Positions 3,001 to 59,352 of a DNA stretch of 64,000 nt are shown piece after piece. The notes under the pieces were generated by a model that saw nothing but the letters and a program-made list of their open reading frames with translations, made no database searches and had not been told where the DNA came from. Source of the stretch: Rhizomicrobium electricum (lineage in GTDB: Bacteria > Pseudomonadota > Alphaproteobacteria > Micropepsales > Micropepsaceae); NCBI RefSeq assembly GCF_011762045.1, contig NZ_JAASQS010000001.1, forward strand, positions 335,868 through 399,867. The letters run 5' to 3'. The stretch's first letter is position 1. Every line of letters begins with the position of its first letter. The translations under genes were made by a program, and so were the position numbers.

Positions 3001-3182
3001 CCGATCCGTTCCTGTCAATCTGCGATGCGCACGGGGTTCAGCTGACGTATGCCAACGACTCGACCAACCATGACGCGGTGATCCGCTTCACGGCTTTGTC
3101 GACCGGCACTTGCTATCTCGTCGCTTCGGCCAATGACACCGGGACCGGCACCTACAAGCTGTTCGCCACCGCAGGCGGCTGA
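1..3182 (+). CDS. RTX-type secreted protein with serralysin-like C-terminal domain, 5' end outside window
   Basis: The frame is open from the first full codon at position 3, so the gene begins before the window. The first ~100 visible residues (NTLDLSGF, VDLHAGAYSS, NIAIAF) match the M10 serralysin C-terminal region; any protease domain would lie upstream and cannot be seen. Then come glycine/aspartate RTX nonapeptides (GGxGxDxxx, Ca-binding) around 280-660, 900-990 and 1780-1950. A ~200-residue module (SGTxxGDxIDATQGGAD...NVE...AGHxYxLT) occurs twice, from about 480 and 1140. The end is six 40-residue repeats (2124-2843) and a PPC-like domain (2850-3179). This C-terminal layout suggests type I secretion, but no transporter genes are nearby. 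Cysteines in repeats 2-4 (ICSY/VCSY) are unusual for an RTX protein. The next gene carries the same C-terminal cassette. Confidence 0.85.
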   Translation, partial: APFFDFTKNVNPVVTIWSAGGNNTLDLSGFLTPNTVDLHAGAYSSCARLTNNIAIAFDTAVDTYVGSAATDRVTCNDHSDHISTGAGDDFIVSGTGNDTLSGGLGYDRVTYAHAAASYSVTRNADGSVTIAGADGTDVLSGIEEIDFSDGKTILSTLNGTAGSETLSGTAAGDVIDATQGGADQINAAGGDDMILLGGALTASDRIDGGAGTDIVRLNGNYSAGLTLTAATMTNVEILSLESGHSYALTLADGTVSSGSSFCIDASQLGESDALTLNGANVSSGSLSVIGGEGILGFTGGAGNDSIRLWLGDAAINGGGGYDTVFIACEYTNIPVKWNLDGSLVVGWYDFSRPKSYQASLSNVEEVDYLNVKVNAAMIRGTSASDTLAGTAMIDGIDATQGGADTITAGDGDDTIFLGAALTAADAIDGGAGTDKVMLDGDYSAGIVLGSQTITNVETIVCAAGHTYKLTIDDTLIATSNSSCTIGGYDLGASDRLIVDASAEKDGEIDLSGGGGNDILRGTFNTNVFGNGGDDLIIRSFAAGVQGLASLNGGDGIDTADYSGDTAGLAAVLTAGYGGTVQGGSVHDQIGGVENFIGGSGNDTITGYDVANSLSGGGGNDVLNGGAGNDVLSGGSGTNTIDGGDGTDTAVLAGQVSDYLVTSNGDGSTTVTGAGETDTLINIEKVTFGGGQTLTLADFEVQAFSKLQALEYIASYKDLMGAFGDDAVWGARHYFNNGKAEGRTISFNALNYICSYGDLVVAFHDDQLAATEHYLKNGSYEGRKVTFDPLAYVCSYSDLLIAFHNDKTAAAEHYIKNGYWENRKVTFDALAYVCSYDDLVIAFHNDKTAAEEHYIRNGYWEGRKVTFNALAYIASYTDLIGAFGTDVQAAEEHYIRNGFWEGRKVTFDPVAYLINNTDLGTCGFTASDATEHYLKNGYWEHRTTNGAFGSEQTNHDLTVGGSVTDTIGTAGDKDWFAVSVTAGQTYTFTLSGVDGGNGTLADPFLSICDAHGVQLTYANDSTNHDAVIRFTALSTGTCYLVASANDTGTGTYKLFATAGG
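2124..2843 (+). repeat. Six tandem 120-bp coding repeats (40-residue YIASYxDL units)
   Basis: Six in-frame units of exactly 40 codons start at 2124, 2244, 2364, 2484, 2604 and 2724. Each follows the pattern ALxYIxSYxDLxxAFxxD...AxxHYxxNGxxEGRxxxF. The last unit diverges (LINNTDLG). Similar repeats are known in alphaproteobacterial RTX proteins; I cannot give a function. They are coding repeats, not a CRISPR or a satellite. Confidence 0.9.
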
Positions 3183-3328
3183 AACAGAAGGGACGAGTTG
3201 AATGCTGACGGGGGAAACTCTCGACGCGGAACAACACGCTGTGGCCAGGATGTTTGCCTAAGGATGACGGGTGTAGGGCGAAAATCTGACCCTTACGCGG
3301 CGTTTCAGGCTACTTTTTTGGGCCTAAA

Positions 3329-3356
3329 ACTCAAACGGCAGTGTGAGACTCAAACG
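3329..3356 (+). promoter_or_regulatory. Possible regulator site: 9-bp direct repeats upstream of the second RTX gene
   Basis: The 217-bp gap between the RTX genes has no ORF of note. It contains the 9-mer ACTCAAACG twice, at 3329-3337 and 3348-3356, a 19-bp period (close to two helical turns). An inverted half (TTGAG, 3360-3364) follows. The pair ends 44 bp before the ATG at 3401. Spaced direct repeats just upstream of a gene can be activator sites. No convincing -35/-10 pair was found, so this is weak inference. Confidence 0.25.
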
Positions 3357-3400
3357 CAATTGAGATAGACTTCTGCCTGTAAAAAGTCCGGGGGGTTATC

Positions 3401-44223: not shown

Positions 44224-44892
44224 TCAGCGCGATGCCAACGCCCGCTCGGCGCGGAGCAGGTCCGCTTCCGTGTCGATGTCGATCGACCGCTCGGCCGGCA
44301 TCACGAAACCGACGGTGTCCTTGTCGACGAAGGCGCGGGTTTTCCGCAGCCAATCGCTCCGGAACGCGTAAAGCGCCCCATTCAGCAGGTATACGGCCGG
44401 AAGATCCTGGCGGCGGGCATAGGCGTCCCCGCCCTCTATCAGGCGGCTGAGCTTCCCATCTCCCTCCAGACGATACATCCAATACGGGCTTTCTTCGGCC
44501 GCGCAGACGCTGACGCAGCTCGACTTGCCTCGCATCGCCGTGAGACAGCCGTCAATGTCCTCCGCCGTCCGGAGCGGCGATGTCGGCTGCAGCAGGATTG
44601 CCAGTTCATATCCGGGGACCGCGTCCAAGGCGTGCAGCACCACGTCAAGCGAGCCCGCCACATCGGTCGCCAGCTCGGCCGGACGGCGCAGCGGCACCGA
44701 AGGATCGAACGCAGCCGCCACCGAGAGGATTTCGTCGTCGTCGGACGATACGACGATGCGGTCGACACAGGCTGAGGCTTTTGCCGCTTCCAGCGTCCAG
44801 CGGATCAGCGGCTTGCCAGCGACGGGGCGCACGTTCTTGCGCGGCACGCCCTTGCTGCCGCCGCGGGCCGGAACGATAGCCAGGATTTTCAT
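44224..44892 (-). CDS. CMP-nonulosonic acid cytidylyltransferase (LegF/NeuA-like)
   Basis: 222 residues from the ATG at 44892; an ATG at 44904 is also possible. Activates a nonulosonic acid with CTP to its CMP form. Diagnostic CMP-NeuAc synthetase N-terminus: AIVPARGGSKGVPRKNVRPVAGKPLI (P-loop-like residues 5-20), then DRIVVSSDDDEIL, LQPTSPLRTAEDID and DIDTEADLLRAE. Last gene before the terminator. Context points to legionaminic acid rather than sialic acid, but the sequence alone cannot decide. Confidence 0.88.
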   Translation of the reverse strand: MKILAIVPARGGSKGVPRKNVRPVAGKPLIRWTLEAAKASACVDRIVVSSDDDEILSVAAAFDPSVPLRRPAELATDVAGSLDVVLHALDAVPGYELAILLQPTSPLRTAEDIDGCLTAMRGKSSCVSVCAAEESPYWMYRLEGDGKLSRLIEGGDAYARRQDLPAVYLLNGALYAFRSDWLRKTRAFVDKDTVGFVMPAERSIDIDTEADLLRAERALASR

Positions 44893-44929
44893 ACCGTCGA
44901 GCATCCGCCCCACCTGTCGAAGGAAATCG

Positions 44930-46000
44930 TTACTCGGCCGGCGGCGCGCCGTTGCGCGCCTTTTCGAGATCGTTGGGCCGGCCGACATCGAGCCAAGCTT
45001 CGTGCATCGGGAAGGCAATCGTCTTCTCCGAACGCTCGCGCAAGCGCATGAACAGTTCGGGCATATCGCACGGCTCATTGCGGCCGATGAGATCGAGCGC
45101 CTGCGGATCGATCACATACATGCCGGCATTGATGTGACAGCGCGACACCGGCTTCTCCTCGAAACCGACGATGTCGACGCCCTCGGTGCGCACCACGCCG
45201 AACGGGTTCTGGGTTTCGTAGATGCGCACCGCCATGGTGGCGACCGCCTGATGATAGAGGTGAAATTCCAGAAGTTCGGAATAGCGGAAGTCGGTCACGA
45301 GATCGCCGTTGGTGACGATGAACGGCACCGAAGGCCGGCTCTCGAACAACCCAAGCGCACCGGCGGTTCCCAGCGGCGAATTTTCCCTTAAGTATTCGAT
45401 CTTGACGTTCCAGCGGCTGCCGTCGCCGAAATACTCCTCGATCATGTGCCCGAGGTAGTGGATGGCGATCACGAAATGCTCGAAACCTTCGAGCTTGGCC
45501 CGTTCGATCACCCGCTCCAGCATGGGCTTTCCCGCCACCGGCAGCATCGGCTTGGGGCAATTCTCGGTGAAAGGCCTCAGCCGCGTCCCCTTCCCGCCCG
45601 CCATCACGACGATCGGATTGGAGCGCGTCTCCGGCACGAGAAATTCGTCCCAGACATGCAGGCCGACCACGCGCCGCGCAGCGTCGACGACCGGCAACTG
45701 GCGAATTTTGTTGGCCACCATCAACTGAAGGACCATGTCGTGGCCCCACTGCGGCGGCGCCACGAGAGGATCGCGATGCATGACCTCGTGTACGGGATTC
45801 GACAGCAAAACACCCCGTATCAGGCCTCTGCGAATGTCGCCGTCCGTCAGCGTGCCCACCAGCACGCCGCCCGCATCGACGATCATCACAATCTGCAGGC
45901 CGCTTCTGTCCAGACAGGCAATCGCTTCCTGAACACTCGCCGTCTCGGGCAACAGGCAGCCTCGCCACTGTTCGGCCGGCAGCGAACCGTCAATTTTCAT
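44930..46000 (-). CDS. ptmE: CBS-domain sugar-1-phosphate nucleotidyltransferase (PtmE-like)
   Basis: 356 residues; ATG at 46000, or a TTG two codons before. Residues ~15-120 form a pair of CBS domains (VGTLTDGDIRRGLI, IRQLPVVDAARRVVGL). Residues ~128-356 form a nucleotidyltransferase (VVMAGGKGTRLRPFTENCPKPMLPVAGKPML, VTNGDLVTDF, INAGMYVIDP, WLDVGRPNDLEKA). This CBS-plus-transferase layout is that of PtmE, which makes GDP-GlcN/GDP-GlcNAc for legionaminic acid in Campylobacter. 24 bp after the neuC-like gene. Guanylyl specificity is inferred from layout and context. Confidence 0.8.
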   Translation of the reverse strand: MKIDGSLPAEQWRGCLLPETASVQEAIACLDRSGLQIVMIVDAGGVLVGTLTDGDIRRGLIRGVLLSNPVHEVMHRDPLVAPPQWGHDMVLQLMVANKIRQLPVVDAARRVVGLHVWDEFLVPETRSNPIVVMAGGKGTRLRPFTENCPKPMLPVAGKPMLERVIERAKLEGFEHFVIAIHYLGHMIEEYFGDGSRWNVKIEYLRENSPLGTAGALGLFESRPSVPFIVTNGDLVTDFRYSELLEFHLYHQAVATMAVRIYETQNPFGVVRTEGVDIVGFEEKPVSRCHINAGMYVIDPQALDLIGRNEPCDMPELFMRLRERSEKTIAFPMHEAWLDVGRPNDLEKARNGAPPAE

Positions 46001-46024
46001 CGTCAACGTGTCCCCCCAATCCCA

Positions 46025-47185
46025 CTAAACCTGGTCCCGGAAGGACTTATGCAGCAACTTCTCGAGGGGAACGTTTGCCAAGACCTCGACGATCTTCTTG
46101 CTCGCGCCGCCATCGCCGTAGGGATTCGTCACTCCGGCCTTCAGCATGCGCTGAAAATCGGCGGAATAAAGCTTCTGGATTGCCGCCGTAATGGCGCCAC
46201 GCTCCGGCTCGCAGTCGATAACGCTCTGCGCTCTCAACCGTCCGTCCTGGCGGGCCCCGATATTGACCGTTCCGATATTGAACGTCGGCGCTTCGCACAG
46301 GCCGCTGGACGAATTGCCCACCACGCCATCGACGTGTTTCAGGCAGGACAGATAGCGCTGCTGGCCGAGCGAAACAAAGCTCTTCGCGCGGGGATGCGTT
46401 GCCACGAACTGCTTGATGTCGCCGGCCAACTCGCGTCCGCCGGTGTCGGCGTTAGACGCCGTGAAGATGAGTGTCACATCTTTAAGCGTCGACAGAGCGG
46501 CCAACACCTCCTGCTGCTCCGCCGTCGAGTCCACATCGCCGCGCGTCACCGGATGGTAGGTCACCATCAGGCTCTTCGCCCCCAACTCGAGGCCCAGTTC
46601 GGCTTCGAGCGCCTTCCGGTCCAAGAGATCGGCGTGCGTGATCGCATCGACACCCAAACCGCCGACCAGATAGACCCGCTCGGGATCCTCTCCCATCTGA
46701 ATGACCCGTCGGCGATAGTCCTCCGCGGCCACGAAATGCAGATGGGACATCTTGGTCACGGCATGGCGGATGCAATCATCGAAGGCACCCTCGGTGACCT
46801 CCCCGCCATGCAGATGTGCAATCGGAATGCGCAGGATCAGGGCCGCGGTTGCCGCCGCGAGCAGTTCGTAACGGTCGCCGAGCAGAACGACGATATCGGG
46901 CTTCAGCCGGCTCAAGGCATCGGCGATCCCCATCACGCCAAGCCCGACCGATCGGGCTATGCCGGTGGACGTGTCGGCGCTCAGCAGCATCTCCACTTTC
47001 TCGTCAATGGAGAAACCGTCGCCCTCGATCTCATGGAACGTCAGACCGAACTCCGGCGACAGGTGCATGCCGGTAACAAGGACCTGCAGAACTAAGCCCG
47101 CATACGACCGGATACCTTCCATAACCCAGCGCAGGCCGCCGTATTCCGCCCGAGTGCCGGTAACGATGCAGATTTTGCGGATCAT
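46025..47185 (-). CDS. Hydrolysing NDP-sugar 2-epimerase (LegG/NeuC-like)
   Basis: 386 residues from the ATG at 47185 (ATGA overlap with the methyltransferase stop). Removes the nucleotide and inverts C2 to give a ManNAc-type sugar. IVTGTRAEYGGL start, LLGDRYELLAAA, IAHLHGGEVTEGAFDDCIRHA, VTYHPVTRGD, and VVGNSSSGLCEAP are the conserved blocks of the NeuC group. In the GDP route it would act on GDP-2,4-diacetamido-trideoxyglucose. Substrate assignment follows the LegB/LegC/PtmE neighbours. Confidence 0.88.
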   Translation of the reverse strand: MIRKICIVTGTRAEYGGLRWVMEGIRSYAGLVLQVLVTGMHLSPEFGLTFHEIEGDGFSIDEKVEMLLSADTSTGIARSVGLGVMGIADALSRLKPDIVVLLGDRYELLAAATAALILRIPIAHLHGGEVTEGAFDDCIRHAVTKMSHLHFVAAEDYRRRVIQMGEDPERVYLVGGLGVDAITHADLLDRKALEAELGLELGAKSLMVTYHPVTRGDVDSTAEQQEVLAALSTLKDVTLIFTASNADTGGRELAGDIKQFVATHPRAKSFVSLGQQRYLSCLKHVDGVVGNSSSGLCEAPTFNIGTVNIGARQDGRLRAQSVIDCEPERGAITAAIQKLYSADFQRMLKAGVTNPYGDGGASKKIVEVLANVPLEKLLHKSFRDQV

Positions 47186-47856
47186 GGCGTGGGCTCTTTG
47201 ACGGCTTCGATCAACCACTCACGAACTTCATCCTGGCGGCCGTTCATTGTCCAGGTCGCGAGCTCCAGGCTCGTCTGGCGCAATCCGCCGAGCAGCACTT
47301 CGACGTCCTCAAGTGCCGTGAAGCGGATCAGCCCCTCGTCGGCCGTCGGTCCCTTGGTCACATACCAGGCATTGTAGCCGGCGGGCTTACCTGTTCCGTC
47401 GCCGACACATCCCTTGGCAAACGCCCGAGAGAAGAACTTCCCCCCCGGCTTGAGAACGCGCCACGCTTCCCGATAAGCCGCCTTCGCATCCTCGAAGCCG
47501 GCGCAGCAGATCGCCTCGTGATCGATGACGCCATCGAACACGCCGTCTGCATAGGGCAAATGAACGAAATCACCCGTTTGCAGTTCTCCCGTCCAGCCGG
47601 CGCATTCGGCATCAAGGCGTTCGCGGGCAATGTGTATAGCTGTCTCAGAACCGTCGATGCCGAATACGGAAAAGCCTTCCCGCGCCATATACCACAGATT
47701 GGCACCCGGCCCGCAACCGAGTTCGCACAGGCGGATTTGAGACCGGTCCGGCGCTGAATAAAAATTGCGCGCGACAAAGCGAATAAGCGGCTCGCTGGGG
47801 TATTTGCCCCAAGGCCTGCTACGGAACATCTTCTCCCAAACGGGATCCCACGTCAT
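47182..47856 (-). CDS. SAM-dependent methyltransferase in the nonulosonic acid block
   Basis: 224 residues; ATG at 47856 after GGGGGAAG. Class I methyltransferase: CELGCGPGANLWYMA (motif I, near residue 44), GIDGSETAI, GDFVHLPYADGVFDGV (motif II region) and WRVLKPGGKFFSRAF. It overlaps the neuC-like gene by 4 bp, so it belongs to the same unit. A methyltransferase (PtmH) also sits beside the legionaminic acid genes of Campylobacter, so it may methylate the nonulosonic acid or its N-acyl group. The target is not known. Confidence 0.75.
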   Translation of the reverse strand: MTWDPVWEKMFRSRPWGKYPSEPLIRFVARNFYSAPDRSQIRLCELGCGPGANLWYMAREGFSVFGIDGSETAIHIARERLDAECAGWTGELQTGDFVHLPYADGVFDGVIDHEAICCAGFEDAKAAYREAWRVLKPGGKFFSRAFAKGCVGDGTGKPAGYNAWYVTKGPTADEGLIRFTALEDVEVLLGGLRQTSLELATWTMNGRQDEVREWLIEAVKEPTP

Positions 47857-47886
47857 GACACTTCCCCCAAGCGACCGATTTGCAGA

Positions 47887-48888
47887 TCAGCAACGATAAA
47901 ACAGGACACGTTGCGGGAACCGGTCGTATTGATCCCTAAACGCAGACTTAAGGTCATCGTACGCCGCCGCGAGATGAATATGTCGGCCTATATGATAAGC
48001 GCGGCGTTGGGCGGAAAAACTCGCCTTAAAAAGAAGTAATTTGTCGTCCGGATCGCGGCTGGTGCCGCCACCCAGGTAAAGGCTCGAACATCCTGCGGCC
48101 TGGCCGAAGGTTGCCGCAGTGTGCAGAATGGCGGTCGGTGCTCCTTGCGTCCGCCCCTGCGGGGTTGCGCCCGCCAAGTGATATTCCATCAATTTTGGGC
48201 CAACCAGAAACAACGACGAAGCCACGATCTGCCCATTCGGATCGCGGCACACGGCGCATTTCATCTGCGCCATTGCCAGCAATTGCTCGAAATACTTTTG
48301 CGGGAAGAAATAGGACTCGTCCGCCCCGATTTCTTCCATGGCCGCATGATAAACGACGGGAAAAACCCGCAGCGCCTCGTCCGCATCCAGCCATGTGACG
48401 GAATAGACGTTCCGTTCGGCCTTGCGCGCGCGAGCACGCGCGCCGCGCGTGTAGGATGCAAGAAGGTCCGGCTGGCGCAGATCGATATAGACCGTATCAC
48501 GGTCGAATTCCGTCGTTCCGCCGTAATCGCGCCAGTTCTCCAACATCGGATGAAAGCGGATGAACTCGCAGACCACACGGGCCTCGGCACAATAACGGCA
48601 CCAGGACGCCCACGCCGCTTCCAAAAAACCCGCACTGTGGTCGTTGGTCAGCGGCCCGCCGTAGCCGTAGGGCGACTGGACATCGTAATAGTCCGTTCCG
48701 GGGATGGCGCCCAAATGAAAGGCTTGAAGCAAGCGCGACCCGCCCCGCTCGAACAGCCAAAACGTCGGAATCAAATCAGCCGATCTCGCGGCGTCCGCCA
48801 AGACGTAGGACGGCGACAGAGTCGGGGCAGTGCTCTCGGGGGCTAACGAGGAAAAAACGGCTTCGGCTTGGGACAGATCAATCAACAT
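47887..48888 (-). CDS. FemAB/GNAT-like acyl- or aminoacyltransferase
   Basis: 333 residues. The ATG at 48888 lies inside the neuB-like gene end (11-bp overlap). Two GNAT-like halves of the FemAB kind: YYDVQSPYGYGGPL (near residue 68) and YTRGARARARKAERN followed by AGCSSLYLGGGTSRDPDDKLLLFKASF. FemAB proteins use aminoacyl-tRNA or acyl donors. Within this block it could add an amino acid or acyl group to an amino sugar. No close functional relative is recalled, so the donor and acceptor are unknown. Confidence 0.65.
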   Translation of the reverse strand: MLIDLSQAEAVFSSLAPESTAPTLSPSYVLADAARSADLIPTFWLFERGGSRLLQAFHLGAIPGTDYYDVQSPYGYGGPLTNDHSAGFLEAAWASWCRYCAEARVVCEFIRFHPMLENWRDYGGTTEFDRDTVYIDLRQPDLLASYTRGARARARKAERNVYSVTWLDADEALRVFPVVYHAAMEEIGADESYFFPQKYFEQLLAMAQMKCAVCRDPNGQIVASSLFLVGPKLMEYHLAGATPQGRTQGAPTAILHTAATFGQAAGCSSLYLGGGTSRDPDDKLLLFKASFSAQRRAYHIGRHIHLAAAYDDLKSAFRDQYDRFPQRVLFYRC

Positions 48889-49990
48889 GCTCGCACACGA
48901 GATCGTCCGCTTCGTAAGCTCGAGAAGCGCGCTGTCCGAGCAGTTTCCAATAGGTCATCGGCGACATGCCGTTTCCCGGCCGCTTGGCAATAAGGTTCTC
49001 CTCGGTAAAAAGTTCTCCGGCAGCGATCGGCACCCGTGCCACAAGGCTTCGCCGGGCGATAGGGATGTTCTTCATCTCCGCCGGTGCCGGCACCTTGAGG
49101 CCGTTGCCGAGCGCCGCCTTGGCGGTCCGCACGCCCTCGACCAGGGCCCGCAGTTCGGAGGGTTCAAGCGATGCCCGGTGATCGGGGCCCGGCAAATTGC
49201 GATCCAGGGTAAAGTGCTTTTCGATGATGACCGCACCACGCGCCGCTGCCGCGATCGCGACCGCAATTCCTGGGGTATGATCGGACAATCCGACCGGCAG
49301 GCCGAACGCCGTCGCCATCGTATCCATGGCGCGCAGGTTGGCTTCGTCCGCCGGCGACGGGTATTCGGTCGTGCAATGCAACAGCGTCACCTTCGAACGA
49401 AGCTGTTCCTGCCCTTCGACCGAGCAATAGGCCCGGCGGAACGCTTCGGCCGACGGCTTTTCTTTGCCGCCGAGATATCCGAACGCCAGCACTCCCAGCG
49501 CGGCTTCGACTTCTCCGAGAGTGCTCATGCCGGTGGAGAAAATGACCGGTTTCCCGGTGCGAGCCGCCGCCAAGAGCAAGGCGCCATGCGTGACTTCGCC
49601 CGAAGCGATCTTGAGCTCCGTGGCGCCGAGTTCGTTGCTGACGAAATCCAGACTGGGCAGATCGAATGCCGTCGTCATGAACGCGATGCCGCGCGCGATG
49701 CAATGATCGCGGACTTTATGGAACTGCTCGGCATTGAGTTCGAGCTTCCGGACGAGTTCCACCTGGGTGGCGACGTCGCCGGTATTGCGGCGCTGATATT
49801 CCGCAGTCGGAGCATGGCGGCTGATGCCCAGTTCCGTCTTGAAGGTCTGGAACTTGACCAAATCCGCACCGGCTTCGCGCGCCACATCGATCAGCTGCAG
49901 CGCAAGATCCAGAGAACCGTTATGATTGACGCCTGCCTCGGCGATGATCCGGATGTTGTCGACATCGCGAATCTTATCAGCTTCGGGCAT
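48878..49990 (-). CDS. Nonulosonic acid synthase (LegI/NeuB-like)
   Basis: 370 residues from the ATG at 49990 (GGGAG 7 bp upstream). Condenses phosphoenolpyruvate with a ManNAc-type sugar. TIM barrel with IIAEAGVNHNGS, DLVKFQTF, LKIASGEVTHG, IFSTGMSTLGEVE, LLHCTTEYPSP, GLSDHTPG and IEKHFTLDR. The C-terminal SAF (antifreeze-like) domain is at residues ~310-370 (RRSLVARVPIAAGELFTEENL). The full two-domain layout is kept. Family blocks alone do not separate sialic, legionaminic and pseudaminic substrates. Confidence 0.92.
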   Translation of the reverse strand: MPEADKIRDVDNIRIIAEAGVNHNGSLDLALQLIDVAREAGADLVKFQTFKTELGISRHAPTAEYQRRNTGDVATQVELVRKLELNAEQFHKVRDHCIARGIAFMTTAFDLPSLDFVSNELGATELKIASGEVTHGALLLAAARTGKPVIFSTGMSTLGEVEAALGVLAFGYLGGKEKPSAEAFRRAYCSVEGQEQLRSKVTLLHCTTEYPSPADEANLRAMDTMATAFGLPVGLSDHTPGIAVAIAAAARGAVIIEKHFTLDRNLPGPDHRASLEPSELRALVEGVRTAKAALGNGLKVPAPAEMKNIPIARRSLVARVPIAAGELFTEENLIAKRPGNGMSPMTYWKLLGQRASRAYEADDLVCEHVD

Positions 49991-50175
49991 CCATCGTCTC
50001 CCACCATGGCCGCACAAGCGGACTTCAAAAAGGAATAGATAATCTCAATCGTCTTACCGGAAGGACCGCCGCGTCACAAGCCCAGATGGAACCTCACCAA
50101 AAGCGCAATACCGGAACCATCGGTAACCGGCGCCACTTCCATCCCACAACCAGACCACACGACCGCGAACGTCAA

Positions 50176-50637
50176 TCAGTCGTGTCGCGATCCCGGCGGT
50201 GTCGACGGCTCGAATATCCGCTCCATTTTGATGAACTCGCCATCCTCGCCCGCGTCTTCGAAACCGAGCGACCGGTACAAATTGGCGGCCAGGAGATTAC
50301 GTTTGTGCACGCGCAGGCCACACTGCTTGAAATCCCGCGACTGAATCGCGGTCAGCGCCGCACTCACCAACGACTTCGCGATGCCCTTCTTCCGACTCTC
50401 GGGCCGGACGACGACCATCGTGATGAACGCACCGCGCGCGGGGTCGTTACAATAGAACGCAACGAATCCCTCAAGGACCTCTCTCGTCCAGAGGATGATG
50501 TCGGCCTCGGTGCAAATTTTTTCGACATATTGGTGGATTTGATCGGGAGGGACGATCTCGAAGTCCACCAAGGACTGGACTTCGAGCAGCAACGACTCCA
50601 TCCGCTCTTTGATCATTAGATAGGGAAAGTGGGTCAT
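50176..50637 (-). CDS. GNAT N-acetyltransferase (LegH candidate)
   Basis: 153 residues. GNAT core: GAFITMVVVRPESRKKGIAKSLV (acetyl-CoA binding RxxGI/A at residues ~82-87) and NLLAANLYRSLGFE. Located between the LegC- and NeuB-like genes with gaps of about 180 bp on each side. In the legionaminic acid route a GNAT enzyme (LegH) acetylates the 4-amino group made by LegC. It is the only small GNAT in the block, which supports that role but does not prove it. Confidence 0.7.
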   Translation of the reverse strand: MTHFPYLMIKERMESLLLEVQSLVDFEIVPPDQIHQYVEKICTEADIILWTREVLEGFVAFYCNDPARGAFITMVVVRPESRKKGIAKSLVSAALTAIQSRDFKQCGLRVHKRNLLAANLYRSLGFEDAGEDGEFIKMERIFEPSTPPGSRHD

Positions 50638-50815
50638 GTCGCCTCTGGACGTGATCTCAAGCTTTCTCGCTCGGCGCCGAGAACCAAAACGCAGTCAATT
50701 CATTCACGCCGCTTCCATGCCACCACAGCGGAACCGACGCTCAACAGACCCCCAATTTCCCGCAATCGCCCCTAGACCGCAACTCCATTTAGTACGGCGT
50801 GACGGTCAAATATCG

Positions 50816-51976
50816 TCACGCCGGCCGCACACTGCTCGGAATGTTAACAACCCGCGATTCCAGCCATTCCGCATTCTCGAGCGGGCCGCGCTGCGCCTCA
50901 ACAAAAGCTGGAAGCCGATGCATCAGCGTCCAGACCGGCCGCGTCATCACCCCGGTGCCGTTGCTCTCTTCGAGAAAGGCGTCCCGCTCCTCGCGGCCAC
51001 CCGTGAGGATGGCATTAAGCCAGAAATTTGAAGTCGTTCCAGGACGCTCATCGACGAAACTGATGCCATGCTCCCGGCAGAACCGCCGGTAACGGCCGGC
51101 GGTATCGCGCTTGTCCGCCAGCATCTCGGACAACTGCTCCAGCTGGGCACAGGCCAAGGCCGCGTTGAGATTGGGCAGGCGGTAGTTGAAGCCGATCTGG
51201 TCGTGGAAGAACTCCCAGGCGTGGGGCACCTTGGCCGTCGTGGTCAGATGCTTGCCCAACCGGCCGAGTTCCTCATCGTCGGTCACGATGCAGCCACCGC
51301 CGCCGCAAGTGACGGTCTTGTTGCCGTTGAAACTGAAGGCGCCAAGCAGGCCGAACGTGCCGGTGTGCCGGTTGCCGACCAGCGAGCCGATCGACTCCGC
51401 AGCATCTTCCACCAGCACCGTATTCCATTCACGGCAAATCTCGACCAGAGCCTCGATGCGGCCCGGCAGGCCGAAACTATGCATGACGACGACGGCAGCG
51501 ATGCGCCGGCCAGTCGAGCGGTTGTAGCACCCGCCGTCACGCCGCTCGCCGTTCGCTTCGAGGAACGCGCGCAAGGCTTCGGGAGAAAGACTCATCGTGT
51601 CGCGATCGACGTCGACGAAAACCGGATGCGCCCGCTGATAGGCGATGGCATTACAGGTCGCCACGAAGCTCAACGGCTGGGTGATGACCTCGTCGCCGTC
51701 GCGCACGCCCGCCAGGATCAGCGACATGTGCAGCGCGAGCGTGCCGTTGGCGGTGGCAATGGCGTAACGCGCGCCGGTCAACTCGCGCATATCCGCCTCG
51801 AAGCGATTGACGTACTCGCCGACAGAGGACACGTAGGTGGAATCGATCGCATCAACCAGATAGCGCTTCTCGTTGCCGCGGAACCGCGGTTCGTGCAACG
51901 GGATGAAACCGCTTTGCCCGTAAAGCTCGCGGATAAACGTCAGCAGCGCGCGATAGTTTTCCGGCAGGTCAGACAT
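50816..51976 (-). CDS. PLP-dependent sugar aminotransferase (LegC-like, DegT/DnrJ/EryC1 family)
   Basis: 386 residues from the ATG at 51976, overlapping legB by 8 bp. Adds an amino group at C4 of a 4-keto-6-deoxy sugar nucleotide, glutamate as donor. PLP-lysine in SFNGNKTVTCGGGG; VEDAAESIGS with the ring-stacking region; GFNYRLPNLNAALACAQLEQL near the C-terminal third; HEPRFRGNEKRYL at the start. The combination with a LegB next door fits the LegC group. Confidence 0.88.
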   Translation of the reverse strand: MSDLPENYRALLTFIRELYGQSGFIPLHEPRFRGNEKRYLVDAIDSTYVSSVGEYVNRFEADMRELTGARYAIATANGTLALHMSLILAGVRDGDEVITQPLSFVATCNAIAYQRAHPVFVDVDRDTMSLSPEALRAFLEANGERRDGGCYNRSTGRRIAAVVVMHSFGLPGRIEALVEICREWNTVLVEDAAESIGSLVGNRHTGTFGLLGAFSFNGNKTVTCGGGGCIVTDDEELGRLGKHLTTTAKVPHAWEFFHDQIGFNYRLPNLNAALACAQLEQLSEMLADKRDTAGRYRRFCREHGISFVDERPGTTSNFWLNAILTGGREERDAFLEESNGTGVMTRPVWTLMHRLPAFVEAQRGPLENAEWLESRVVNIPSSVRPA

Positions 51977-52955
51977 TGTAGATATTCGCCTTGTACTTGG
52001 CGAGGTTGGCCGGATCGCCAAACCAGGCGACGGTGCGGCGCAAGCCTTCTTCCAGCGTAAATTGCGGCCGGAAACCCGTCAATTCGCGCAGCAGCGTGTT
52101 GTCGCAGCAAAGCCGGAACACCTCCGACTGCGGCGGGCGGATGCGTTCGGCCTCGACCACCGCAGCGGCGTCGGACCGCATCATGCCGCGGATCATCGCC
52201 AGCGTATCGCCGATCGACACTTCGGTGCCGGATCCGACATTGACGGTCTTGCCGACCGCCGCATCGCACTCGGCCAGCGCAATGAAACCGCCGCAGGTAT
52301 CGGCAACGTAGTTGAAATCGCGCGTCGGGCTCAGATCGCCGAGCTTGACCTCTTTGCCGGCGGCAATCTGGGTGATGATCGTCGGAATGACGGCGCGGGC
52401 GCTTTGCCGCGGACCATAGGTGTTGAACGGACGCACCAGCGTCACCGGCAAACCGAAGGCGTTATGAAAGCTCATCGCCATCGCATCGGCGCCGATCTTG
52501 CTGGCGCTGTAGGGCGACTGCGGCTGCAACGGGTGCTTTTCGTCGATCGGGACATAACGCGCGGTGCCGTAAACTTCGGATGTCGAGGTCACCAGCACAC
52601 GGCTCACGCCACACTCGCGCGCCGCCTGGCAGATGTTGAGCGTACCGCGAACGTTGGTGTCGACGTAGGAATCCGGCGCGACGTAGGAATAGGGAATGGC
52701 GATCAGCGCCGCCAGATGGAACACCATCTCCCGGCCCCGCACGATCTCCTTGCAGAAATGAGGATCACGAACATCGCCACAGACGACTTTGACCCGGTCT
52801 TTGCAGCCGACGTCCTCCAGCCAACCCCAATTGTTGAAGGAGTTGTACAGCGAGAGCGCGGTGACGTCGTAACCGCGCGCAACAAGCATCTCGACGAGAT
52901 GAGAACCGATAAAACCGTCGGCACCGGTGACCAATACCTTCTTCTGCCCGCTCAT
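51969..52955 (-). CDS. NDP-HexNAc 4,6-dehydratase (LegB-like)
   Basis: 328 residues from the ATG at 52955. Extended short-chain dehydrogenase: VTGADGFIGSHLVE (residues 7-20), LYNSFNNWGWLED (a run typical of LegB), STSEVYGTA, YSASKIGADAMA with YxxxK, RPFNTYGPRQS. First committed step: GDP-GlcNAc to the 4-keto-6-deoxy form. Coupled to legC by overlap. Confidence 0.88.
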   Translation of the reverse strand: MSGQKKVLVTGADGFIGSHLVEMLVARGYDVTALSLYNSFNNWGWLEDVGCKDRVKVVCGDVRDPHFCKEIVRGREMVFHLAALIAIPYSYVAPDSYVDTNVRGTLNICQAARECGVSRVLVTSTSEVYGTARYVPIDEKHPLQPQSPYSASKIGADAMAMSFHNAFGLPVTLVRPFNTYGPRQSARAVIPTIITQIAAGKEVKLGDLSPTRDFNYVADTCGGFIALAECDAAVGKTVNVGSGTEVSIGDTLAMIRGMMRSDAAAVVEAERIRPPQSEVFRLCCDNTLLRELTGFRPQFTLEEGLRRTVAWFGDPANLAKYKANIYNV

Positions 52956-53074
52956 CGCCGATTCTCTGCCGAAGTGTTCGCCTACCAACCCTCAAGACAT
53001 TTAGCAGCCCCTAGCCATGTTCGCCACAACTAACGGCGGCGGGGCGCGTCGCGCTCATATGCCGGGTCAGACCG

Positions 53075-53947
53075 TCATTTAATCAGGCGAATGGTTTCCT
53101 CTATGTGGGGTCGCGATGACGCCCCGAACACAACCGACTGAATGTTGAGGCTATTGACGAAGTCGTAGGCCTCTTTCGGCGGCACCGCACCGGACGCCAG
53201 CGTCGACATCGCCATCATAGGAAATGCCTCGGGGTCGTTTTCCGCCAGCGCCTGCTTGTACGCCTCCACGCCCGGAGACATCAGGTAGCCGATCTTGTTG
53301 ATCGAGGAACAAATCACCACCCCGGAGATGCCCCACTCCATCAGCTTGTTCCGGAGGTAAGGCATATTTTGGGTAATCAGCCCCGGCATCGCTCCGTACT
53401 TGCGGCGCACGTGCTCACAATATTCGCGGAAGATGTCGGCCGTATCCAGTCCGAGCAGCAGATCCGTGACAATGTTCTGCAAAAAGACGACCTTGATGTT
53501 GAGGCCGTCGAACATCTGCATTTCGGCATCGACCAGCATCTTCATCATGCGGACGATGTCCATCGACATCAGCGCCAGACCGCCTTGCGCCAGCTTGCCG
53601 ATGCCCGACAACCGGCCCTTTTGAAACAAGACGTCGTTCAGAGTTCCGACGATGCCCTTCTCGGCAACCCAATTGGCGTACTTGTGGGGATACGGGATCG
53701 AAGGATACCAGCTGAGGCCGGCGTATCGCGAAGGATTGCTGCGGAAGCGGTCGCAGATCTCGGCCGCCCGGCTGTTGCTGTTGAGCATTACGGCGCGGAG
53801 GCCGGCGTCGATGGCGGCATCGTAGACCGAGAAAATTGCGTCGAGGTCGTGGAAGCGCTCCGCCAACTGCTGCGCCTTGTCCTGCGACATATGGTTGATG
53901 CCGAAGAACTGATTATCGCCGAAAACGATTTGGTCGATCGTGCTCAC
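53075..53947 (-). CDS. TIM-barrel-like protein of unknown function in the nonulosonic acid block
   Basis: 290 residues from a GTG at 53947, with AGGAG about 9 bp upstream inside the preceding gene. Opening IVFGDNQFFGINHMS, then ISGVVICSSINKIGYL, and a closing MAMSTLASGAVPPKEA...IQSVVFGASSRPHIEETI that resembles the last strand and helix of aldo/keto-reductase barrels. I see no clear Asp-Tyr-Lys-His reductase tetrad. It follows the Gfo/Idh gene with no real gap, so the two likely act together on the sugar or its side chain. I do not recognise a characterised family. Confidence 0.7.
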   Translation of the reverse strand: MSTIDQIVFGDNQFFGINHMSQDKAQQLAERFHDLDAIFSVYDAAIDAGLRAVMLNSNSRAAEICDRFRSNPSRYAGLSWYPSIPYPHKYANWVAEKGIVGTLNDVLFQKGRLSGIGKLAQGGLALMSMDIVRMMKMLVDAEMQMFDGLNIKVVFLQNIVTDLLLGLDTADIFREYCEHVRRKYGAMPGLITQNMPYLRNKLMEWGISGVVICSSINKIGYLMSPGVEAYKQALAENDPEAFPMMAMSTLASGAVPPKEAYDFVNSLNIQSVVFGASSRPHIEETIRLIK

Positions 53948-53948
53948 C

Positions 53949-54998
53949 TCAGACCATCTCCTTCTCGATCACAGCCGCGTCGCGGAAAATCTCGTCGATC
54001 ACGGCCAGCGTTGCCGTCGCATCGGCGAAACTGCACATGGTCCGGCGATCCTCCGCGGCTTTGATCTTCTCGATGAAATGGTAGAGCTGCGCCGTAAACT
54101 CGACGCCTCTGACGTAAAACGGAACGGAGTTGAACACATCCGTTATATAGAGCGTGTTCCAGCCCCTCTTGAAACCGCGCTCGGGATCGTCGTGATCGAG
54201 AAAAAGCTTCAGCCCGTGCTGATCGGCCAGGATCTTGCCGCGGCGCCCGAACACTTCGAGTTTGTTGGTCGGCTTGCGGAAGCTCGCATCGCTCCAGTTC
54301 ACATACAGCGCGCCGGTGCAGCCCGACTTATAGGCAAACGTGCTGGAGACAACATCCTCCACGTTCTTCGAAAACACATGCGTCAGGCGGCTGCCAGCCA
54401 CTTTGTCGGGCGGACCGAACAGGAAATTGATGAGATCGATGGCGTGCGAAGCCATCTCGTAGGTCGCTCCGCCGCCATTTGCGTGCGACGAGCGCCAGCC
54501 CTCTCCCGCCTCTTCGCGAACGACGGTGCTACTGTACATTTCGCTGCGAAACCGCAGGATTTCGCCGAGCAGTCCGGCCTGCAGATAACGCTTCACCGCA
54601 ACGAAAACGTCGTTGAAGCGGTTCACATAGCCGACCTGATTGACCAATCGGCTGCCGTCGAACAGTGCGGCCAGCTCTTCGCCCTCACGAACCGAGAGCA
54701 GGAAGGGCTTTTCGACAAAGGCGTGCAATCCCTTGCGGTGCGCAGCCGTCAGGATTCCATGGTTGAGCGCGGGCGGGGTACACAGCAGGATCGCGTCCAG
54801 CGCCTGCTTGTCGAACATTGTCTCGGCATCCTTGTAGGTCGCCGCCTTCACGGACTTATCGAGGAACAGACGCATCACCGACGAGGGTTCGGCAACAGCC
54901 GTAACCTCAACATCCGGGTGCGAGTTAATGATCGCATAGTGCGTAATCCCCATCCGGCCCGCACCAACGATACCAACCCTGATTTTTCCTCCGGACAT
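53949..54998 (-). CDS. Gfo/Idh/MocA-family oxidoreductase
   Basis: 349 residues from the ATG at 54998 (GGGGGAG upstream). NAD(P)-binding VGIVGAGRMGITHY (near residue 7), the family EKPF motif in HAFVEKPFLL, and a C-terminal alpha/beta domain with GGGATYEMASHAIDLINFLFG (conserved His). Such enzymes oxidise or reduce sugars or sugar nucleotides at a ring or side-chain carbon. First gene of the nonulosonic acid block; forms a pair with the TIM-barrel-like protein. Substrate not known. Confidence 0.8.
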   Translation of the reverse strand: MSGGKIRVGIVGAGRMGITHYAIINSHPDVEVTAVAEPSSVMRLFLDKSVKAATYKDAETMFDKQALDAILLCTPPALNHGILTAAHRKGLHAFVEKPFLLSVREGEELAALFDGSRLVNQVGYVNRFNDVFVAVKRYLQAGLLGEILRFRSEMYSSTVVREEAGEGWRSSHANGGGATYEMASHAIDLINFLFGPPDKVAGSRLTHVFSKNVEDVVSSTFAYKSGCTGALYVNWSDASFRKPTNKLEVFGRRGKILADQHGLKLFLDHDDPERGFKRGWNTLYITDVFNSVPFYVRGVEFTAQLYHFIEKIKAAEDRRTMCSFADATATLAVIDEIFRDAAVIEKEMV

Positions 54999-55391
54999 TG
55001 CTCCCCCTTTTTTGAACACCCGCGACAGGAGAGAACCTGACGCTTCCCGCCGGCGTTTGTCGCATCTGCTTCAGCCGGCTTCGCGTTCCGTCGCAAATAC
55101 CGGAAACCCCTGACGATGTTGGTGTGGTAACACCCCTGCAGGCCCCTGGTTTAGCGCCAACCGGTGGTAAGCAGCAAGTCTCCAGGACACACTATTCGTT
55201 GAGTTTGCGTTTGCCGAACCGAGATACGACGGTCCCACGCCAATGATCGGCTTGCCGCCCGCGGCAACGCAGACGCACGCTCATCCCGCCGACGAAAAGG
55301 TGCTGCAAATTGTCACGAACGCGACTGGCCGCATCGAACTCCTCCAGTACCGAAGCAACGCACCATGAATCGGCCCGATCGAATGTCGATT
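54999..55391. other. Intergenic region before the nonulosonic acid block
   Basis: 393 bp. It probably carries the promoter of the block (minus strand), but no good consensus was found. A 67-codon TTG-start frame on the minus strand (55192-55395) overlaps the FkbM stop by 4 bp and has mixed codon use and no strong ribosome site. I leave it uncalled, though a small coupled protein is possible. Confidence 0.35.
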
Positions 55392-56120
55392 TCAAACCTT
55401 CTGGTAGGAGTTATCCTGAAACAGAGGATTTTCTTTGCGGGCGAAGAACAGATCCATCTGCCACAACGAATGGTCCGACGGACGCTGCATGGGGTCGGCT
55501 AAGTTGAAGCAGCGAAAACCCAGCGTATCGAGCAGCATACACATCTCGGGAAACAGCCGCGTCGTTTCGGTGTGACGGAAATTATAAACTTCCATCACGA
55601 TGAAGCTGGTCTGCTTCAAAGTCTCCGCCGCACCGTTGAGAATAGGGACTTCGACGCCATGCGTGTCGAACTTCAGGACGAACGGGCCGCGGCAGTTTTT
55701 CATCTGCGCGATAGCATCGATCGAATGGGATGGAACGCTTCTGACCCGCCCCTCGCGACCGCCGACGGTGCTTCCGTCCAGATCGTCGCTGACACTGAGC
55801 TCGATGGTCTCGTTTGCCTTCTCGCCTGCCACACACAAAACGTAGTCGAACTTCGGGTGGCTCGCCTTCAACTGCTTCAGCGCGGGCTCTCTTTCCGCGA
55901 GCGGATCAATGGCGACAAAGTCCGCTTCCGGAAAATACTTCATCGCCGTTTTGCTCCAGCGGCCGTTGGAGGCACCGATATCGATGACGGAGCGGACATC
56001 TTGGGCCCCTCTCGCCATCACCTTGATGACGGATTCCATATCGATGCCGCTCTTGTAGAGTTGAACGCCGAACGGGCTGATGATCCCATTGGCGAAATTC
56101 AACAGCGTCCTTTTGAGCAT
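55392..56120 (-). CDS. FkbM-family methyltransferase
   Basis: 242 residues; ATG at 56120 with GGAGGG upstream. VIDIGASNGRWSKTAMKYFP (SAM site near residue 45), FVAIDPLAEREPALKQLK, and VPSHSIDAIAQ...GPFVLKFDTHGVEVPILNGA are the FkbM pattern. Members O-methylate sugars in glycans and antibiotics, so this one may methylate the polymer. It is in the same direction as the rest of the island with ~200-bp gaps on its upstream side. The acceptor is unknown. Confidence 0.85.
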   Translation of the reverse strand: MLKRTLLNFANGIISPFGVQLYKSGIDMESVIKVMARGAQDVRSVIDIGASNGRWSKTAMKYFPEADFVAIDPLAEREPALKQLKASHPKFDYVLCVAGEKANETIELSVSDDLDGSTVGGREGRVRSVPSHSIDAIAQMKNCRGPFVLKFDTHGVEVPILNGAAETLKQTSFIVMEVYNFRHTETTRLFPEMCMLLDTLGFRCFNLADPMQRPSDHSLWQMDLFFARKENPLFQDNSYQKV

Positions 56121-56322: not shown

Positions 56323-57453
56323 TTACTTCATCAAACCCTTGGATTTCATCTCCGCGAGCGAGCCTTCGTAATCGCTCGTCACTGCGCCGATGGTCCGGAC
56401 CCAGGCGCAGAAACGGTCAAGGCCTTCATCGAAGCTGACCCGCGGCTTGAAGCCCAAGATCCTTTCGATGCGCTCCAGAGAAGCAAAATTGTGGCGGATA
56501 TCACCGATCCGGAAGTTGCCGGTGACCGTAATCGGAGAATTGCCGTTCAGCTTGCGGTTCAAGGCATTGGCAACGGTCATCACATCCGTGGGAACGCCGG
56601 TTCCGACGTTGAACACATAGCCGCTTGCCCGATCGTCCATGATCGCAGCCGCCGTGATCCGCGCGACGTCGTCGATGAACACGAAATCGCGGCTTTCGGT
56701 GCCATCCTCGAAGACGTTGATGGGCTTGCCGCTCATGATCAGGTTGGAAAAGATTGAAAGGATGCCGGTATAAGGGTTGGAGAGCGACTGCCCCGGCCCA
56801 TAGACATTCTGGTATCTGAGCGCGACGGGAGCAACCTTGATAGCCGGGCAGACCGTCATGACAAGCTGTTCTTGAACCTGCTTGGTAATGCCGTATACCG
56901 AGGACGGATGGAGTTTCGACTCTTCGTCGGTTGCCGTGAGCGCCAACCGCGAACTGCCGGGGTATTTCACCTCGAAGTCGCCCTTGCTCATGTCCTCGGC
57001 GGAACGGTGTTCGGGGTAGACCGCGCCAAGTTCCTTCGAAACGTATTTGCCTTCGCCGTAGATCGAGCGCGAAGAAGCGACCACGAGACGCTTCACGCTG
57101 TGCGGTTCATTGGCGAGAATGTCGAGCAGCAGCGATGTCCCGCCCACATTGACCTTCATATAATGGTCGATGCGGTACATGGACTGTCCCGTACCGGTTT
57201 CGGCGGCGAGATGGACGACCGCATCCTGGCCCGCCAGCGCGCGACGCAGATCGGCCCTGTCCGTCACATCACCACGGATAAACGCGACCTTGCCGGCGAT
57301 GGACCGGTAGAGCACGGACTTCTCCGGCTCCTCGCCATGGATCTGGGGCGACAGATTATCGAGAACGGTAACCTTGCATCCCTCGGCAAGCAGCTTGGTC
57401 ACGAGGTTCGTGCCGATGAACCCCGCCCCTCCGGTGACCAGAATATTTTTCAT
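56323..57453 (-). CDS. NAD-dependent epimerase/dehydratase (extended SDR)
   Basis: 376 residues; ATG at 57453 after GAGGAG. ILVTGGAGFIGTNLV (residues 4-18), VVHLAAETGTGQSMY, VASSRSIYGEG, YGITKQVQEQ with catalytic Tyr and Lys, LRYQNVYGPGQSL, DGTESRDFVFIDDVA. It contains an insert before the YxxxK region (HRSAEDMSKGDFEVKYPG). Related to sugar-nucleotide epimerases of the GalE/WcaG kind, but the exact substrate cannot be read from sequence. It would supply or modify one sugar of the polymer. Confidence 0.8.
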   Translation of the reverse strand: MKNILVTGGAGFIGTNLVTKLLAEGCKVTVLDNLSPQIHGEEPEKSVLYRSIAGKVAFIRGDVTDRADLRRALAGQDAVVHLAAETGTGQSMYRIDHYMKVNVGGTSLLLDILANEPHSVKRLVVASSRSIYGEGKYVSKELGAVYPEHRSAEDMSKGDFEVKYPGSSRLALTATDEESKLHPSSVYGITKQVQEQLVMTVCPAIKVAPVALRYQNVYGPGQSLSNPYTGILSIFSNLIMSGKPINVFEDGTESRDFVFIDDVARITAAAIMDDRASGYVFNVGTGVPTDVMTVANALNRKLNGNSPITVTGNFRIGDIRHNFASLERIERILGFKPRVSFDEGLDRFCAWVRTIGAVTSDYEGSLAEMKSKGLMK

Positions 57454-57521: not shown

Positions 57522-58535
57522 TTAGTCGATCAGGCGCCGTACGAAATTCTGAATGTGATAGGCCTCAATTGCATCGACGCCGCCTTCCAGCCCTCGCGCC
57601 AGAAACGTCTTCACGCCCGAAAAATCCAGGTCTCGATACGTGTGAATTCGATCGGGAGAATAGAACGCTTCCTGCAGGACGTTTTCGTTATTGGTGATGA
57701 TTTTCCTGTCCATGCAGAGATTTTCGATCAGCCGCATGGTGTAGCCCGATTGGCGGTGATTGGCGAAATCGAAGACCGCCACCGAACGCGCGATCATGTC
57801 GTGTGCCCGTTTCCCGGATATCGGGAAGAAGGTAACTCCACGCGGAAAAATTCCCTGACGCAGAAGAAGGTAGAAGGCGTAAACGCTGCACGTCATATGC
57901 GTGTAGAAGGCGATGCCGTTTGCCCGGCAGTATGCCGCGAACGCCCGGACAGCGAGATAGCGCGGAGCGGTCGCAACATTGCCGATGCAATAGACGGCCC
58001 CTTCCGATGGCGGAACCGTCCGCATCGCCTGAAGCGATCGGAGGCAGAACAACGGCAGATAGCCGATCCCGAGCGCCGACGCATCGGCTTTGTCGAAGGT
58101 GAATACGCGATCGAAGACGTGCATCACGGGCCGGTAGTCGTGCGTGTATATCGAATCCCAGTTGTAAAGCACGAAGCGCGCCCCGGCGTGCTGGTGACGC
58201 AGGGTCTGGAGGTTTTCGACTGAGACTTGATGCGCCTGGATGAAGACCACGAAGTCGTAATGCCGGTTCTGCTCGGCCGCGATGATCGCGCGATGGTGGC
58301 GATCGAGCATCCGGCGATAGCGCGACGGCCACAGCCGGCGGACCAGCTGGAACTGCAAAGACCGGGGTTGCACCTCGTGATACGTGACCGCAAATCCCAT
58401 CCGCTCGAATTCGGCGGCAATTCCGTCCGTATAGGCGTGATAGCGCAGCCCGATCAGCAGCAATCGGCTCGTTTCCGAGGATCGCGTTTGTAGGTCAAGG
58501 GTCTCTTGAGATGTCGGCGGAAGGTGCGGGCACAT
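57522..58535 (-). CDS. Putative GT-B-like glycosyltransferase
   Basis: 337 residues; ATG at 58535, just after the stop of the WecG/TagA gene. LLLIGLRYHAYTDGIAAEFERMG opens a Rossmann-like half. FVVFIQAHQVSVE, FVLYNWDSIYTHDYRPVMHVFDRVFTFDKADA and FDFANHRQSGYTMRLIENL with KIITNNE resemble CgeB/eps-type transferases, where the last part contacts the nucleotide sugar. No membrane segments. Likely adds a sugar to the lipid-linked unit on the cytoplasmic side. Donor unknown. Confidence 0.6.
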   Translation of the reverse strand: MCPHLPPTSQETLDLQTRSSETSRLLLIGLRYHAYTDGIAAEFERMGFAVTYHEVQPRSLQFQLVRRLWPSRYRRMLDRHHRAIIAAEQNRHYDFVVFIQAHQVSVENLQTLRHQHAGARFVLYNWDSIYTHDYRPVMHVFDRVFTFDKADASALGIGYLPLFCLRSLQAMRTVPPSEGAVYCIGNVATAPRYLAVRAFAAYCRANGIAFYTHMTCSVYAFYLLLRQGIFPRGVTFFPISGKRAHDMIARSVAVFDFANHRQSGYTMRLIENLCMDRKIITNNENVLQEAFYSPDRIHTYRDLDFSGVKTFLARGLEGGVDAIEAYHIQNFVRRLID

Positions 58536-58539: not shown

Positions 58540-59352
58540 CTATCTCCTCAGGAACCGTGCGGTAAACAGCCCTTTGAAGAAGATCTCCGCCGTGCCGACA
58601 GCGGACCACCATAGCCGCTTGGCGCGCACCTTTGGCTGCATAATCAGACGGAACAGCCACTCCAGCCCAAGCTTTCGGATGATATAGGGGGCCCAGGGCA
58701 CCACGCCTGAATGGAAATCGAACGCCCCTCCGACGCCGACCATCCAGGGTGCGTTGATGCGCCCGAGATGGCTGGCAATCCAGGCTTCTTGCTTGGGCAA
58801 TCCCAAGCCAACCCAAACGATGTCGGGCTTGGCCTGATTGATCATCGCGACGATCTGATCGTCTTCCTCTTTCGTGAGTTCGCGAAACGGCGGCGTATAT
58901 ATCCCGCAAACGTTCAGATCCGGGTATTTCTCTCTGAGCCGCCGCGCCATTTCCTCGGCAACGCCTTCCTTGCCGCCGTAATAAAAATGCCGCCACCCCC
59001 GGCTCTGGCCGTAACGCGAACACTCGAGCTGGAAGAGAGGTCCGTTGAAACGCCGGATGCGGTAGCCCCAGGTCCAGCCGGCGACGATCACCCCAACGCC
59101 ATCGCACAGCGAAAAGTCGGAACCCCGGATGAAGTCGCCGTGCCCCGGCCGCCGTAACCCATGGTACAGAGCTTCCGAATTGGTGATCGAGACATAGTGC
59201 CCGCACTCTTTGGCCGCAATGGCGCGCCCCACTTCCGCGAGCACCACGTCTGCGGGAGACAGCGAAATGGTCAATCCGCCAATGTTGGCCGTCGCCGGGC
59301 GGCGCCCTGGCGCTGGCTCTCCCGCACCTAATTCCTTTTCCGGATTATTCAT
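58540..59352 (-). CDS. WecG/TagA/CpsF-family glycosyltransferase
   Basis: 270 residues. GT26 signatures: YVSITNSEALYHGLR (near residue 53), FSLCDGVGVIVAG, FYYGGKEGVAEEMARRLREKYP, PDIVWVGLGLPKQEAWI, and GVGGAFDFHSGVVPWAP. WecG/TagA enzymes move ManNAc or ManNAcA to undecaprenyl-PP-GlcNAc, so this is probably the second sugar after the WecA-type enzyme. The GGAGGA ribosome site is about 13 bp upstream. 99 bp after fcl. Confidence 0.9.
   Translation of the reverse strand: MNNPEKELGAGEPAPGRRPATANIGGLTISLSPADVVLAEVGRAIAAKECGHYVSITNSEALYHGLRRPGHGDFIRGSDFSLCDGVGVIVAGWTWGYRIRRFNGPLFQLECSRYGQSRGWRHFYYGGKEGVAEEMARRLREKYPDLNVCGIYTPPFRELTKEEDDQIVAMINQAKPDIVWVGLGLPKQEAWIASHLGRINAPWMVGVGGAFDFHSGVVPWAPYIIRKLGLEWLFRLIMQPKVRAKRLWWSAVGTAEIFFKGLFTARFLRR

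Follow-up and report, generated by a model that had tools for sequence, protein, structure and literature searches.

Results

Gene organization around the Gfo-ORPH pair

The window analyzed here, a stretch of 64,000 nucleotides from Rhizomicrobium electricum, contains a ~31-kb polysaccharide locus (from about 31 to 62.5 kb) that includes a gene for a Gfo/Idh-type dehydrogenase (Gfo) followed by a gene for an orphan barrel protein (ORPH). Legionaminate (Leg) genes flank the pair on one side and an FkbM, SDR, glycosyltransferase, WecG, and GDP-fucose segment on the other. A sequence-only reading had placed the pair at the head of a sugar block; the block is indeed a polysaccharide locus, but the pair sits inside it. 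The features are as follows.

44224-52988, minus strand: CMP-legionaminate gene set (context, outside the module; NCBIfam and Pfam matches), with the seven members that follow
44224-45078, minus strand: LegF
44930-46006, minus strand: PtmE-like
46025-47218, minus strand: NeuC/LegG
48878-50017, minus strand: NeuB/LegI
50176-50637, minus strand: GNAT protein, candidate LegH
50816-52021, minus strand: LegC
51969-52988, minus strand: LegB
53075-53947, minus strand: ORPH, orphan barrel protein of the predicted aldo/keto reductase (AKR) fold, 290 amino acids, GTG start (open reading frame, relatives, AlphaFold2 model, AKR fold)
53949-54998, minus strand: Gfo/Idh/MocA dehydrogenase, 349 amino acids (Pfam PF01408, PF22725, and PF02894; catalytic residues; own clade)
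53958-53963, minus strand: Shine-Dalgarno-like AAGGAG inside the last Gfo codons (direct reading)
55392-56120, minus strand: FkbM methyltransferase (PF05050), between the pair and SDR2
56323-57453, minus strand: SDR2, GalE-like NAD-dependent epimerase/dehydratase, 376 amino acids (Pfam Epimerase)
57522-58535, minus strand: putative glycosyltransferase, no Pfam match, related genes near the pair in eight loci
58540-59352, minus strand: WecG/TagA/CpsF glycosyltransferase (TIGR00696)

Direct reading of the minus strand gave the junction GAGAAGGAGATGGTC-TGA-G-GTG, in which the Gfo stop codon (53951-53949) is followed by one base and then by the ORPH GTG start at 53947. This junction and the open reading frame at 53075-53947 agree with the earlier description of a 290-codon gene beginning 1 bp past the dehydrogenase stop, and the proposed ribosome site inside the Gfo gene corresponds to AAGGAG at 53963-53958, 10 nt ahead of the GTG. 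The Gfo frame is open to 55019 (53949-55019, minus strand), with a likely start at 54998. Searches of ORPH against Pfam, NCBIfam, PHROG, and PDB sequences returned no match, in keeping with the view that it has no characterized sequence relative, and its relatives in annotated records are named "hypothetical protein." Sequence conservation nevertheless indicates that the ORPH coding region is genuine, because ORPH shares 44-71% identity along its entire length with relatives from many phyla. Literature searches found no published work on the Gfo-ORPH pair.

Among the genes beyond the pair, the FkbM methyltransferase has related genes near the pair in four relatives, and WecG lies at most three genes away in 15 relatives. 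SDR2 scored under every family cut-off of NCBIfam; its counterparts (62-71% identical) directly follow the pair in nine loci and occupy position +6 in a tenth, and SDR2 is probably a third partner within the close clade. Upstream of the polysaccharide locus, at 300-8227 on the plus strand, two adjoining giant repeat proteins of 960 and 1608 amino acids have near-identical C-terminal repeat blocks.

Distribution and co-evolution of the two genes

A single scan across 84,980 species genomes revealed at least 455 relatives of ORPH, of which the best 80 were kept; the scan relied on exact motifs and is thus biased toward close relatives. These 80 loci, some of them from metagenome bins, represent about nine phyla (Pseudomonadota, Bacteroidota, Actinomycetota, Planctomycetota, Ignavibacteriota, Chlorobiota, Fibrobacterota, Myxococcota, and Thermodesulfobacteriota). 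Fixed genome samples showed ORPH to be rare, with 2 carriers among 398 genomes from the window's phylum and 5 carriers among 296 from that of Dysgonomonas. Four records among 72,556 plasmids carry it (Bacteroides, Palleronia, Rhodovulum, and Novosphingobium), and no relatives were found in phages and viral contigs.

Counting the window, 85 of 86 loci have the Gfo gene immediately upstream of ORPH and in the same orientation. In the remaining locus a PssD/PssE-like pair stands between the two, and the gene order is kept in all 86; the Gfo-ORPH gap is mostly -17 to +77 bp. Distance matrices of Gfo and ORPH were correlated with r = 0.91 (63 pairs; permutation maximum 0.12), compared to 0.43 for WecG and ORPH at the same loci. 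All 63 partner Gfo proteins fell into one clade in an IQ-TREE analysis (support 100/99), with two further Gfo genes from the Rhodovulum locus placed outside it, in a tree where some outgroup branches are very long. When the plasmids were searched reciprocally, the window Gfo matched the four ORPH carriers best (all at E 3e-55 or better), ahead of a fifth match at E 5e-13; each partner occurs in this collection only together with the other. The arrangement extends to a Bacteroidota locus (L114, 6359-8840) whose ORPH is 30% identical and still downstream of WecG and Gfo. Its N-terminal motif is GHNPLFG in place of GDNQFFG, and this trio is a second branch of the ORPH family. Given the gene order, the co-evolution, the single Gfo clade, the plasmid reciprocity, and the distant trio, the Gfo and ORPH genes are one co-evolving unit, in keeping with the coupling proposed in the sequence-only reading.

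Properties of the Gfo/Idh dehydrogenase

The window Gfo matched PF01408 (9.5e-20), PF22725 (9.7e-23), and PF02894 (1.9e-15), and both the Rossmann domain and the Gfo/Idh C-terminal domain are present. Its catalytic EKP lysine and D/E-x3-His motif are intact, with E96, K97, P98, and H185 invariant in 63 sequences. Gfo/Idh enzymes oxidize sugar hydroxyls. The best single-sequence PDB match was 3q2i (E 4e-18), which we take to be WlbA. WbpB and WlbA, which are UDP-GlcNAcA 3-dehydrogenases, resemble the window Gfo in being Gfo/Idh enzymes of surface polysaccharide pathways, but the partner of WbpB is the aminotransferase WbpE whereas that of the window Gfo is an AKR-fold barrel. With the partner-Gfo family profile, WbpB/WlbA scored as well as other functional groups of the Gfo/Idh family, several of which scored about equally, so that these scores speak for relatedness only. 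Assignment of the window Gfo as PtmF was rejected; it belongs to the ORPH-partner clade, and PtmF is separate in the IQ-TREE analysis (100/99).

Predicted fold and active site of ORPH

AlphaFold2 run with 67 relatives yielded a confident TIM barrel (pLDDT 86.5, pTM 0.85; residues 110-126 unsure), superseding a single-sequence model with pLDDT 36.9. A Foldseek search of the PDB with this model placed AKRs on top (4exa, E 4e-7), and in VIA-align 2 all 50 of the matches listed were AKRs or AKR-fold Kv-beta subunits (Z 16-18), the best having Z 18.0, rmsd 3.0 over 222 residues, and 11% identity. The model and fold search thus point to a TIM barrel of the AKR type, as the sequence-only reading had proposed from the look of the protein's ends. 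The corresponding sequence signal is weak and confined to the C-terminal part: the ORPH family HMM gave only three PDB matches, two of them AKRs (E 0.59 and 2.6), and profile-profile comparison with AKRs aligned only the C-terminal 37 residues (beta-8 region). The window ORPH did not match the AKR family PF00248 at E 1, and PF00248 was absent from the families shown for members of the ORPH alignment. Compared with known AKRs (PA4992, PDB 4exa; AKRtyl; YghZ; Kv-beta), ORPH shares the (beta/alpha)8 fold and the C-terminal GAS(S/R) motif of beta-8; of the features bearing on putative NAD(P)H binding, this motif and the beta-5 Asn are present. It differs in the low identity, the lack of PF00248, a substituted tetrad, and new conserved residues after beta-3, beta-4, and beta-6.

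The AKR tetrad Asp-Tyr-Lys-His, suspected earlier to be missing, is substituted at all four positions in a comparison with AKRs encoded by the genome to which the window belongs: M54 (72 of 73 sequences), D/E/S59, P82-S/C83, and N158 (73 of 73). The global ORPH-AKR profile alignment is unreliable in the middle and only its N and C termini were read; hence M54 and D/E/S59 derive from this alignment, and P82-S/C83 and N158 from the beta-3/beta-4 strand register in the model. Polar residues that are almost invariant (D11, N12, Q13, Y86, H88, K89, Y90, Q157, N158, D162, T192, N194, N217, and S277) are enriched in the model at the C-terminal strand ends (14 of 24; Fisher p 9e-4), which is where TIM barrel active sites lie. 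The 30%-identical relative retains Y86, K89, Y90, D162, N194, N217, and K218. Judging from the model, we take ORPH to be an enzyme with a rebuilt active site and not a dead AKR.

The loss of the tetrad, along with the strict pairing and co-evolution with Gfo, would also fit a noncatalytic ORPH that serves as a subunit or scaffold tuning or anchoring the dehydrogenase, much as Kv-beta subunits re-use the AKR fold. We consider this role unlikely, since the conserved polar residues gather on the catalytic face instead of being spread across the surface, and since the one fusion partner of ORPH is a glycosyltransferase and not Gfo: at L044 9171-10856 a single open reading frame of 561 amino acids joins ORPH to WecG/TagA/CpsF. 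Returning to a catalytic ORPH, a tentative and somewhat doubtful extension is that it founds a new AKR-fold catalytic class, whose relocated site would isomerize or epimerize the keto-sugar made by Gfo to give an unrecognized sugar donor for the polysaccharides of about nine phyla. In the model, candidate residues for such a site are Tyr86/Lys89 after beta-3, Asp162 after beta-4, and Asn217-Lys218 after beta-6.

Relation of the pair to legionaminic acid synthesis

The sequence-only reading had offered a step in nonulosonic acid or side-chain synthesis as the role of the pair. The window encourages the former: the pair shares its strand with the Leg genes, LegB is 119 bp away, and no terminator was seen in the interval. 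NeuB also lies eight genes from the pair in one relative (L011, Caulobacterales). A further parallel comes from EpaA/EpaB of Acinetobacter prophages (8-epipseudaminic acid), likewise adjacent genes for an AKR-type protein and an NAD-type dehydrogenase that remodel a polysaccharide sugar, in that case pseudaminic acid. The likeness has limits: EpaA carries a CTP_transf_3 domain and an AKR domain detectable by Pfam, unlike ORPH, EpaB is an SDR and not a Gfo/Idh enzyme, and their substrate is a nonulosonic acid.

Surveying the other genomes gave a different picture. LegB, LegC, NeuC, and LegF were near the pair in none of 85 relatives and NeuB in one, essentially the lack of co-occurrence that the sequence-only reading had named as counting against such a role. 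Across whole genomes, a NeuB match above the family threshold was present in 7 of the 50 that carry the pair and in 69 of a background set of 398 (from one phylum), which is no enrichment. The Leg gene set (PMC4481668; for the UDP-linked pathway of B. subtilis, PMC7439481) was recognized in the window by NCBIfam matches over cut-off (TIGR04180, TIGR04181, TIGR03568, and TIGR03569), and its core is complete without the pair, comprising LegB, LegC, the GNAT protein (which may serve as LegH), LegG, LegI, LegF, and the PtmE-like protein. In the Leg loci examined from E. coli, Sulfitobacter, and Rhizobium, the corresponding place is held by PtmF and PtmA or by neither, and never by ORPH. PtmF is likewise a Gfo/Idh protein inside Leg clusters, but forms a separate, well supported clade and is accompanied by the SDR PtmA rather than by ORPH. 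On the basis of the neighborhoods, genome counts, complete Leg core, and PtmF tree, we rejected a role of the pair in nonulosonic (legionaminic) acid synthesis or EpaA/EpaB-like epimerization and regard it as very unlikely; synthesis of a side chain or another sugar, taken broadly, remains likely.

The window Leg set (44224-46006) is without PtmF and PtmA, as is that of Sulfitobacter W027; in E. coli S30, Sulfitobacter faviae, and Rhizobium WL3 these two genes stand next to PtmE and LegF. Between NeuC and NeuB, at 47182-48888, the window encodes a SAM methyltransferase and a FemX-like GNAT protein, which possibly add a further substituent to the nonulosonic acid.

Neighboring genes and proposed function

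In roughly three quarters of 70 loci, Gfo is immediately preceded by a glycosyltransferase gene (WecG in 11, DUF354 in 13, GT4-type in 23, and GT28 C-terminal, PssE-like, in 6). Directly downstream, the commonest genes encode NAD-dependent epimerases (15 of 54) and UDP-GlcNAc 2-epimerase (8 of 54). The neighborhoods of relatives also include genes for exosortase, Wzz/Wzc-type proteins, flippase, and polysaccharide lyase. Companion sugar genes are each found in part of the loci only (WecB in 10, GDP-fucose synthase in 12, dTDP-rhamnose genes in ~6, and SDR2 in 10), and we abandoned the deduction of one substrate from them. Because most loci share no sugar-nucleotide gene, the substrate is probably a housekeeping or common nucleotide sugar.

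We judge the chances to be somewhat better than even that Gfo and ORPH form a sugar-modifying two-enzyme module feeding the neighboring glycosyltransferase, with the exact chemistry less certain. Such a module would be dedicated, horizontally mobile, and devoted to a modified sugar for surface polysaccharides. EpaA/EpaB provide a precedent in which an AKR-type protein and a dehydrogenase jointly epimerize pseudaminic acid by inverting a center (PMC12053666), and an NAD-recycling Gfo/Idh enzyme generates a keto intermediate of sialic acid (PMC7535918). From the EpaA/EpaB precedent and the sugar oxidation typical of Gfo/Idh enzymes, we infer that Gfo would oxidize one ring hydroxyl of a nucleotide-activated, possibly lipid-linked, sugar and that ORPH would then act on the keto-sugar by stereo-inverting reduction or isomerization. 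Oxidation would most likely occur at C3, by analogy with glycoside 3-dehydrogenases and with WbpB/WlbA, WbpB acting at C3 of UDP-GlcNAcA (PMC10622841); this position is tentative, as several functional groups score about equally with the Gfo profile. Candidate active-site residues of ORPH in place of the tetrad are Y86, K89, D162, N194, and N217-K218, and the product would be used by the glycosyltransferase encoded next to the pair. Two observations speak against this module: the complete loss of the tetrad is unexpected if ORPH performs an ordinary reduction, and the companion genes that differ by locus (WecB, dTDP-rhamnose, GDP-fucose) do not point to one substrate.

The missing common nucleotide-sugar gene is also compatible with editing of a sugar already on the undecaprenyl carrier or nascent glycan, as are the ORPH-WecG fusion and the second-sugar transfer onto UndPP-linked sugars attributed to WecG-type enzymes (PMC11340318). 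Neither Gfo nor ORPH has an obvious membrane segment when the sequences are read by eye, which argues against this site of action. Soluble Gfo/Idh relatives, moreover, commonly use free or nucleotide sugars, and we hold the carrier-linked substrate to be improbable.

The Gfo/Idh dehydrogenase and its tetrad-less AKR-fold partner form a widespread two-gene module that is apparently undescribed. The pair occurs in hundreds of polysaccharide loci, including those of gut Bacteroides, soil Burkholderiales, Mycobacterium, and Planctomycetota. Should the pair produce one specific sugar, an entire class of loci would become partly readable, a missing biosynthetic route would be open to in vitro assay using two soluble proteins, and the AKR fold would gain a member working without the AKR tetrad.

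Two further neighborhoods were observed. In Bradyrhizobium jicamae (L064, 18107-20470) a WecB-WecC fusion (UDP-GlcNAc 2-epimerase and UDP-ManNAc dehydrogenase) lies within a few genes of the pair. Genes for polysaccharide lyases (heparinase II/III, PF14099) stand beside the pair at L053 5962-7797 and also in L032, L041, L082, and L048, hinting at uronic acid-containing polymers.
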